A stretch of 36,823 nucleotides of DNA, taken from Chthonomonas calidirosea (lineage in GTDB: Bacteria; Armatimonadota; Chthonomonadetes; Chthonomonadales; Chthonomonadaceae). Below the pieces are notes generated by a model. The model did no database searches and was not told the DNA's origin. It worked only from the letters and a program-made list of their open reading frames with translations. The DNA lies in the NCBI GenBank assembly GCA_945878775.1, contig CAMCUQ010000015.1, forward strand, positions 1 through 36,823. The letters are read 5' to 3'. This document shows, one piece after another, positions 29,491 through 32,174 of this stretch. The stretch's first letter is position 1; every line of letters starts with the position of its first letter. Both the position numbers and the translations under genes were made by a program.

Positions 29491-30546
29491 ATGAGTGAAG
29501 TGACCCCTGAGTTTGCGGGAGACCGTTATGATAAGACTCCCGAAGGTTGGTTTCGTCGTTCTGGGCGTTCTGGATTGCTTTTGCCCGCTATATCGATGGG
29601 GTGCTGGCACAATTTTGGCGATCCCGGTACGGATTCCGCACGTCATGCCGATGACCATTCTCTCCATGAGAACGCGAAGGCGATGCTCTTTGCCTCATTC
29701 GATAACGGGATCACGCATTTTGATCTTGCCAACAACTATGGACCCTCGCCGGGAGCCGCTGAGACCCGTGTTGGACGCATCCTCAAGGAGAACTTTCAAG
29801 GCTATCGGGATGAGTTGATTATCTCCTCGAAAGCGGGCTATTGGATGTGGAAAGGTCCCTATGGAGAATGGGGATCAAGAAAATACCTCACTGCCTCCCT
29901 CGATCAATCGCTGAAGCGTTTGCAATTGGACTATGTGGACATCTTCTACTCGCACCGCTTTGATCCAAACACCCCTCTTGAAGAGACCATGTTTGCACTC
30001 GACTCGGCAGTGCGTTCTGGAAAAGCCCTCTATGTGGGAATATCTAGCTATAGTGGAGAGCAGACCCGACGCGCCATCGCGATATGTGAGGCGCACAACT
30101 ATGTCAAGCCGATCATTCATCAGCCGAGCTATTCGATGCTAAACCGTTGGATCGAGCCGGACCTCCTCCCTGCAACGGGGGATTTGGGCATTGGGGTCAT
30201 CGCGTTCTGCCCATTGGCACAAGGGCTTCTAACGGACAAATATCTAAACGGTATCCCCGATGATTCGCGTGTCCGACAACCCGCAGGAGCTTTGAATGAA
30301 GGGAGTATCACGCCGGAAACGGTGGCGAAACTCAAAGGGCTTCAAGGTGTGGCAAAAGAGCGTGGTCAGTCCCTTGCACAAATGGCTCTCTCTTGGTCAC
30401 TTCGAGATAGTAGAGTGACTTCTGCTCTCATTGGAGCAAGCCGCGCTGAACAGATCGTCGAGAATGTGAAGGCTGCCGAAAACGTGATCTTCTCACAAGA
30501 AGAGATCACTCTCATCGATGGGATTCTTGCTGGGAAAACGGCATAA
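29491..30546 (+). CDS. Aldo/keto reductase (YghZ/MgrA-like L-glyceraldehyde 3-phosphate reductase family)
   Basis: RRSGRSGLLLPAISMGCWHNFGD, ANNYGPSPGAAETRVGRIL, LQLDYVDIFYSHRFDPNTPLEETM, SLRDSRVTSALIGASRAEQIVEN. Confidence 0.92.
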   Translation: MSEVTPEFAGDRYDKTPEGWFRRSGRSGLLLPAISMGCWHNFGDPGTDSARHADDHSLHENAKAMLFASFDNGITHFDLANNYGPSPGAAETRVGRILKENFQGYRDELIISSKAGYWMWKGPYGEWGSRKYLTASLDQSLKRLQLDYVDIFYSHRFDPNTPLEETMFALDSAVRSGKALYVGISSYSGEQTRRAIAICEAHNYVKPIIHQPSYSMLNRWIEPDLLPATGDLGIGVIAFCPLAQGLLTDKYLNGIPDDSRVRQPAGALNEGSITPETVAKLKGLQGVAKERGQSLAQMALSWSLRDSRVTSALIGASRAEQIVENVKAAENVIFSQEEITLIDGILAGKTA

Positions 30547-30564: not shown

Positions 30565-31707
30565 ATGATCCAACGGCTATACGTTCACAACTTTAGATGT
30601 TTAGAGAACTTCGACTTGCTTTTAGCCGATAAATCGTCCATGCTATTGATTGGCAAAAATGGCACCGGTAAATCTACTATTGCCTCTGTGTTAGAGGTGT
30701 TCCAAAATATCGGGAGGGGAAACAATCAGGTTAGTCAGCTTTTTAGCCTTACAGATTTTGCACAGGGAAAAACGGACGTGCCGATTCGTATCGAAATTGA
30801 GGTGCTTCTCAATGGGGTGAGGTACGAATACAAGATTGCCGTGGAGTTGTCTGGAGGGTTTAAGGAGATTCGTATTCGAGAAGAGAGGCTTGTTGCCGAT
30901 GGCAAAGACCTTTTTTTTAGAGATATTGCCCAAGTAAACCTTGTTAAGAACGAAAACTTGCCACCCTCTCAGTTTACAGTAAATTGGTATCTTGTGGCTC
31001 TTCCTGTGATTCAATCGAACTCAATTGATCCGATATATGTCTTTAAGGTCTGGTTGGCTCAAATGTTGATATTAGCTCCCATTCCTGCCCTCATTGCAGG
31101 CAATTCTGAGAGGCAGAGTTTAGAGCCCAATAGGCAAGCCACAAATTATGGCGACTGGTTTTCAGGTCTAATCGCACAATCTCCACGCGCGTACAGTATC
31201 ATTGAGCATCATGTCAAAGAGATATTGCACGACATGAGTGATATAACCAGTCCTGTTATTGGTCGAGACCCACGTAATGGAGTGGACTCCCGCACTCTGC
31301 TTGTGAGATTTAAGGCGAAAGGTAGCGGAGCGAGAATACCTTTAGATATTCCTTTTCAATCTCTCTCTGATGGTGAGAAGATATTCTTTATTTTTGCCAC
31401 TGTTCTTGCCGTGAACCAGACAAATGGACCTGTATTCTGTTTTTGGGATGAACCAGATAACTTCATATCACTTGATGAAGTGGGACATTTTATTATGGCA
31501 CTGCGTCGTTCATTTCAGTCACAGGGTCAATTTATTGCTACCTCTCATAATGCAACAGTGGTTCGCCACTTCTCGAATGAGAATACCCTGTTACTTGGCA
31601 GGCGTAGCCACCAAGACCCTACACGTTCTGTTTGGCTCAACGAAGCAAAGTGGGATGGCGACCTTGTTCACGCGTTAAGCGACAATGAGATTGAGCCATG
31701 GGAATGA
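30565..31707 (+). CDS. AAA family ATPase (RecF/OLD/AAA_21-like, SMC-type ABC ATPase fold)
   Basis: IQRLYVHNFRCLENFDLLL, Walker A LLIGKNGTGKST, signature FQSLSDGEKIFF, Walker B FCFWDEPDNF, His switch FIATSHNATVV. Confidence 0.9.
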   Translation: MIQRLYVHNFRCLENFDLLLADKSSMLLIGKNGTGKSTIASVLEVFQNIGRGNNQVSQLFSLTDFAQGKTDVPIRIEIEVLLNGVRYEYKIAVELSGGFKEIRIREERLVADGKDLFFRDIAQVNLVKNENLPPSQFTVNWYLVALPVIQSNSIDPIYVFKVWLAQMLILAPIPALIAGNSERQSLEPNRQATNYGDWFSGLIAQSPRAYSIIEHHVKEILHDMSDITSPVIGRDPRNGVDSRTLLVRFKAKGSGARIPLDIPFQSLSDGEKIFFIFATVLAVNQTNGPVFCFWDEPDNFISLDEVGHFIMALRRSFQSQGQFIATSHNATVVRHFSNENTLLLGRRSHQDPTRSVWLNEAKWDGDLVHALSDNEIEPWE

Positions 31708-32174
31708 ACAAATATCAACCCCATGTTGTCGTCTTACCAGAGGATGATGCCACCCGCCAATTGGCAGTAGGTTTTAGTTTGGGAATGCACCAAACCTGTC
31801 CGCTGGATGTGAAAGACCCTGCTGGCGGTTGGACACACGTTCTCCAACTGTTTGTGACAGAATATCTTCCCAAATTTCGGAAAGATAAAGGGAACCTGCA
31901 CCTTGTTATGCTCATTGATTTTGACAATAATCTGGAGCGATTGGAAACGATGAGGGAACGTATTCCTGATGAACTGAAAGGGCGCGTATTTGTTATCGGG
32001 GCATGGTCAGCAGCAGAAAAATTGCGACAGGGTCAGTATGGCAGTTTTGAGAAGATTGGATTGTCGCTGGCTCAGGATTGTCAAGAGGAGAGACCGTGGA
32101 ACCATGAGCTCCTCCAGCATATTGACGAGGAGATTAAGGACATGACCAAAGCCCTTAAACCCATTTTGTTTTAG
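31698..32174 (+). CDS. Small Toprim-like (DUF4276-like?) partner protein of the AAA ATPase
   Basis: 158 aa. Acidic motif after strand 1 (HVVVLPEDDA) and DxD after a later strand (LHLVMLIDFDNN), the spacing expected for Toprim-type metal sites. Overlaps the ATPase stop; ATG at 31698 or 31704 (ATGA). Confidence 0.6.
   Translation: MGMNKYQPHVVVLPEDDATRQLAVGFSLGMHQTCPLDVKDPAGGWTHVLQLFVTEYLPKFRKDKGNLHLVMLIDFDNNLERLETMRERIPDELKGRVFVIGAWSAAEKLRQGQYGSFEKIGLSLAQDCQEERPWNHELLQHIDEEIKDMTKALKPILF

Follow-up and report, generated by a model that had tools for sequence, protein, structure and literature searches.

Two overlapping genes of Chthonomonas calidirosea, here called ATP and TOP, probably form a discrete and so far unnamed defensive ATPase–Toprim system that is related to known systems but separate from them. 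They lie in the window, that is, the whole stretch of 36,823 nucleotides that was analysed. The pair is a compact, conserved and testable candidate defence system found in at least 11 phyla, and its effector carries no name in the Pfam, NCBIfam or PADLOC libraries that were searched. Searches of open-access literature found no paper naming the pair.

Organization and base composition of the gene pair

ATP (30565..31707, + strand) encodes a 380-aa ABC ATPase of the SMC/Rad50/PtuA type (Pfam AAA_21), and TOP (31698..32174, + strand) encodes a small predicted Toprim nuclease of 158 aa. The two reading frames overlap by 10 nt, so that the whole pair covers 1.6 kb, and they are flanked by genes for an aldo/keto reductase (AKR) and a sugar-nucleotidyltransferase. 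The original prediction, made from the DNA letters, had placed both reading frames at these coordinates and had described the ATPase motifs, the acidic motifs of TOP and the metabolic neighbours, all of which are present. It had also judged the ATPase gene AT-rich by eye, and per-gene values bear this out for the pair: the GC content is 43.8% for ATP, the lowest among the 27 genes of the window, and 46.3% for TOP, as compared to a mean of 51.5% (SD 1.9) for the 25 other genes, corresponding to z-scores of -4.1 and -2.7, respectively. In parallel, GC3 is 42.8% in ATP and 47.8% in TOP versus 56.1% in the remaining window genes. The base composition of the pair is foreign.

The same locus differs in close relatives. 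Four relatives, two of the same genus and two of the same family, are without the pair at this place; in their genomes the genes for a DegT aminotransferase and the nucleotidyltransferase are separated by 62-185 nt, while in the window 2,780 nt containing AKR, ATP and TOP lie between them. AKR (29491..30546, + strand) is outside the cassette, has a normal GC content (52%) and is also missing at the relatives' junction. It may have arrived separately from the pair, as it is located elsewhere in three same-genus genomes (about 87% identical), or it may have come with the insertion; its DNA similarity to same-genus genomes stops at the gene borders. One same-genus genome contains a remnant of TOP without the ATPase.

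The ATPase

On its sequence motifs and predicted model, ATP is assigned to the ABC/SMC-type ATPases (AAA_21), with a Walker A, a signature, a Walker B and a His switch. The match to Pfam AAA_21 reaches 5.6e-15, and SMC_N is matched as well. The Walker A motif GKNGTGKST (aa 30-38; 30652..30678, + strand) includes G30, N32, G35 and K36, which are 100% conserved, and is followed by the conserved ABC signature LSDGEK (aa 267-272; 31363..31380, + strand). The Walker B strand (aa 290-296; 31432..31452, + strand) carries D295-E296 and runs into the motif FWDEPDNF (aa 293-300), where W294-D295-E296-P297 are 100% conserved, as is the His switch H328 (31546..31548, + strand) within TSHN (aa 326-329). 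Among 80 homologues, G30, N32, K36, S268, G270, E271, K272, D295, E296 and H328 are invariant. The AlphaFold model of ATP (pLDDT 74, with residues 174-188 and 220-258 poorly modelled) resembles PtuA of Septu and retrons, Rad50 and SMC heads, with a best E of 1.9e-10. Among PADLOC models, ATP matches AbiLi (4e-19), AriA (2.6e-16) and HEC-01A (2e-15).

A small partner of predicted Toprim fold

TOP has no family match in Pfam or NCBIfam; likewise, 55 members of its family give no meaningful match in Pfam, including none to Toprim or RecR, and a sequence search of the PDB with TOP profiles returned nothing meaningful. The AlphaFold model, obtained with 55 sequences, has a mean pLDDT of 90 and a pTM of 0.85, with strands at residues 9-14, 36-38, 67-74 and 97-102 in a predicted Toprim-like topology. 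In particular, Toprim motif 1 PEDD (aa 14-17; 31737..31748, + strand) puts the catalytic-type E15 immediately C-terminal to strand 1, motif 2 DFD (aa 74-76; 31917..31925, + strand) closes strand 3, and E107 (32016..32018, + strand), conserved in 87 of 88 sequences, is a candidate second-metal acid after strand 4. The top PDB match in Foldseek is the retron-Eco2 RT-Toprim (E 7e-3, prob 0.97), the OLD nuclease 6p74 is also among the matches (prob 0.72), and viral matches include a DnaG TOPRIM (prob 0.91), with modest E-values that are all at or above 7e-3. The topology and these matches agree with the proposal, made at the outset, that the small partner is of the Toprim type.

The acidic motifs picked out by the original prediction are not due to chance, since all 88 homologues share E15, D16, D74 and D76. 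In the alignment of 88 near-full-length sequences, P14, G44, G101, G121, C128 and W134 are also invariant, and W45, R81, E107, H141 and N142 are nearly so, the window copy having I at 142. The glycine that follows the catalytic glutamate is missing in TOP, where E15 is followed by the invariant D16 (ED, not EG), so the predicted Toprim assignment rests on the fold topology together with the invariant E/DxD acids. As the homologue alignment also contains no universally conserved lysine, nuclease activity of TOP is not assured. In retron-Eco2, whose Toprim domain is an RNase, metal A is bound by E374 and D460/D462 and metal B by D378/S513/E515, while K562 is catalytic (PMC12405507). E107 of TOP may be the equivalent of Eco2 E515 (SxE). 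A TOP homologue of one genome (G145, loci L011 / L024) has an in-frame TGA at the position of the nearly invariant W45, which may represent a pseudogene, an assembly error or recoding.

Distribution, pairing and mobility

The possibility that the pair could be an isolated oddity, or a distinct type standing by itself, gave way to a well-populated family: one strict scan of species genomes, based on a 3-sequence TOP alignment, returned 123 relatives, of which 80 matches were kept. The latter come from Acidobacteriota, Cyanobacteriota, Thermodesulfobacteriota, Pseudomonadota, Planctomycetota, Verrucomicrobiota, Chlorobiota, Deinococcota, Actinomycetota and Calditrichota, among other phyla, and TOP is known from at least 11. 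Within the phylum of the host, a search of 290 other genomes gave matches in 12, some of them partial and one spurious (13/291 with the host included). A match at L034/G222 was rejected as TOP because the reading frame had no support from the TOP profile. In one cyanobacterial order, TOP is present in 49/293 genomes (about 17% of those sampled), and a relative is carried by a large Kovacikia plasmid. Phage records and a scan of viral contigs, the latter with strict patterns, contained no TOP relatives.

Wherever both genes are complete among the loci checked, TOP always lies immediately 3' of the same type of ATPase, the usual overlap across homologous loci being 4 nt. The pairing is also reflected in ATPase scores: the ten ATPases of the phylum at or above 419 bits are exactly the TOP-paired ones, and the next best reaches 248. 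No conserved neighbours surround the pair across loci, and the insertion sites are unrelated. On the tree of the family, 15 phylum changes are counted, as against a minimum of 9 and a shuffled mean of 40; the tree is thus clustered partly by phylum, with a contribution of vertical inheritance and, probably, transfers. Housekeeping synteny was rejected on the patchy presence and the non-conserved neighbours. Rather, the pair is patchy and mobile, being found in a minority of genomes and in unrelated neighbourhoods and missing at this junction in close relatives.

Relation to known ATPase–Toprim systems

As had been anticipated, the pair follows the same ATPase-plus-Toprim logic as OLD, RloAB and PARIS, and its effector has no clear match to a known family, RloB and DUF4435/AriB being excluded at the profile level. 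The closest characterised mechanism is that of PARIS, in which the Toprim tRNase AriB is paired with the ATPase AriA (PMC12409363). The two systems have the ATPase and the Toprim on separate genes, and the AriA model matches ATP, but the 158-aa TOP has no detectable relationship to the DUF4435 proteins sampled (no Pfam match; hhalign prob 0.05 versus six of them). RloA/RloB and AbiLi/AbiLii also combine an ATPase with a following Toprim-like protein, and AbiLi is the best PADLOC match of ATP; TOP, however, has no detectable relationship to RloB (PF13707), with no Pfam match and an hhalign prob of 0.03 versus 20 RloB proteins. The same genome has an independent RloAB-type pair (contig C8:23007-24906), where an RloB (4e-34) adjoins its best AAA_21 ATPase. 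The retron-Eco2 RT-Toprim and the OLD nucleases share with TOP the Toprim fold and the E plus DxD acids, but the TOP system has no reverse transcriptase, keeps its ATPase on a separate gene and has ED instead of EG. Gabija and class 1-3 OLD systems were rejected on the separate genes and because no third gene (GajB helicase or reverse transcriptase) is shared among the neighbours. Septu and retron PtuA provide the closest solved fold to the ATPase; their partner differs, as PtuB of Septu is an HNH nuclease whereas TOP is a predicted Toprim.

A wider class emerges from lower-scoring sister ATPases of the same phylum, since 12/12 of those checked (L169-L180) have an overlapping or near-adjacent protein of ~170-200 aa downstream. 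These small proteins look Toprim-like and typically carry CED, DAD and E(T/N)W motifs. TOP aligns with a profile of eight of them over 155 columns, its full length, and the acidic residues line up (prob 88, E 3.5e-7, score 38.4, whereas no score in 60 column-shuffled controls exceeded 7.0), which points to a distant but detectable relationship with the 'CED…DAD…ETW' proteins. The sister proteins in turn align with HEC-01B-like proteins (prob 96); one of them matches PADLOC HEC-01B at 1.4e-9, while PADLOC leaves 6/7 of those scanned unmatched. Because TOP is linked indirectly to HEC-01B through the sister proteins, the window pair forms, on sequence comparison, a separate branch within a larger class of ATPase–Toprim pairs, one of whose members is a PADLOC candidate. 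With several such pairs brought together in this class, a single mechanism could be tested across it. An assignment of TOP to HEC-02B was rejected, as a weak match (5e-4) in 1/55 members did not recur; a search of the phylum found no HEC-02B, and the same search was also silent in control genomes.

Function and alternative explanations

The reading that we consider likely is that ATP and TOP are a two-gene system against phages or plasmids that moves horizontally and in which the ATPase controls a small two-metal Toprim nuclease. A defensive role is probable because of the obligate pairing and the movement between distantly related bacteria. Together with this role, we infer a complex, a sensed trigger, a nuclease activity and RNA rather than DNA as substrate. 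The SMC/PtuA-like ATPase would assemble with TOP and control it; upon infection, it would recognise an altered nucleic acid or a product of the phage, and this recognition would license TOP to cut nucleic acid. By analogy with AriB of PARIS and with retron-Eco2, RNA or tRNA cleavage and growth arrest would be favoured over DNA cleavage. A bolder proposal, put forward tentatively and judged rather improbable, is that TOP is a new class of Toprim effector, with an ED-type active site and a conserved C-terminal set of C128, W134 and H141-N142, that acts on a target which no known system uses while its dedicated ATPase senses a distinct phage trigger.

It is unlikely that the pair instead serves DNA repair or genome maintenance as a RecF-like ATPase with a RecR-like Toprim partner. 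Its ABC ATPase fold is common to Rad50 and SMC heads, RecF is weakly matched (5e-6) and the neighbour genes are mostly metabolic, but an accessory of this kind fits poorly with a pair that occurs in a minority of genomes, is inserted at unrelated places, is missing at this junction in close relatives and is sometimes broken, and TOP matches neither Pfam Toprim nor RecR. Even less credible is a toxin-antitoxin module with TOP as a constitutively toxic nuclease and ATP as its antidote. The overlap of the genes, the nuclease-like partner and the mobility would suit such a module, but an intact TOP lies beside an ATP broken by a stop or a large deletion at five loci (L048, L058, L064, L069 and L096), although assembly errors are possible for these copies; the records of L048 and L058 are not titled MAG. 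TOP without a full ATP seems to be tolerated, since it persists in this state.

A further alternative bears on the separateness of the pair and leaves its defensive role untouched, namely that it is merely a divergent member of HEC-01, which is possible but not favoured. HEC-01, a Hma-embedded candidate of PADLOC (HEC-01A + HEC-01B), likewise has two genes for an ATPase and a small Toprim-like protein. Membership is suggested by the match of ATP to HEC-01A, though its scores with the AbiLi and AriA models are as good, and by the chain of profiles that leads from TOP through the sister proteins to HEC-01B. Directly compared, however, TOP falls short of HEC-01B, whose models give no meaningful match (2e-3 at best among 55 members; hhalign prob 0.8 to HEC-01B-like proteins), and it has motifs of its own (PEDDANRQ, SEPE, WxHxLLxHN). 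Its ATPases form a separate score group, with a clean split between the TOP-paired ones and all others, and one locus has both systems side by side, the ATP–TOP pair adjoining a HEC-01 pair that is encoded on the opposite strand (L043:2267-4836). The HECs are embedded candidates, several of which have demonstrated antiviral activity, HEC-06 being named (PMC12988326); no statement was found on HEC-01.

The favoured reading of ATP–TOP as a defence system therefore keeps part of the earlier idea of a defence cassette: mobility, patchiness and the predicted Toprim partner speak for it, while no clear enrichment of defence genes was found when the nearest neighbours were compared with more distant genes. 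Individual copies adjoin R-M, BREX, Dpd and HEC-01 genes, and matches to defence models also occur farther away.
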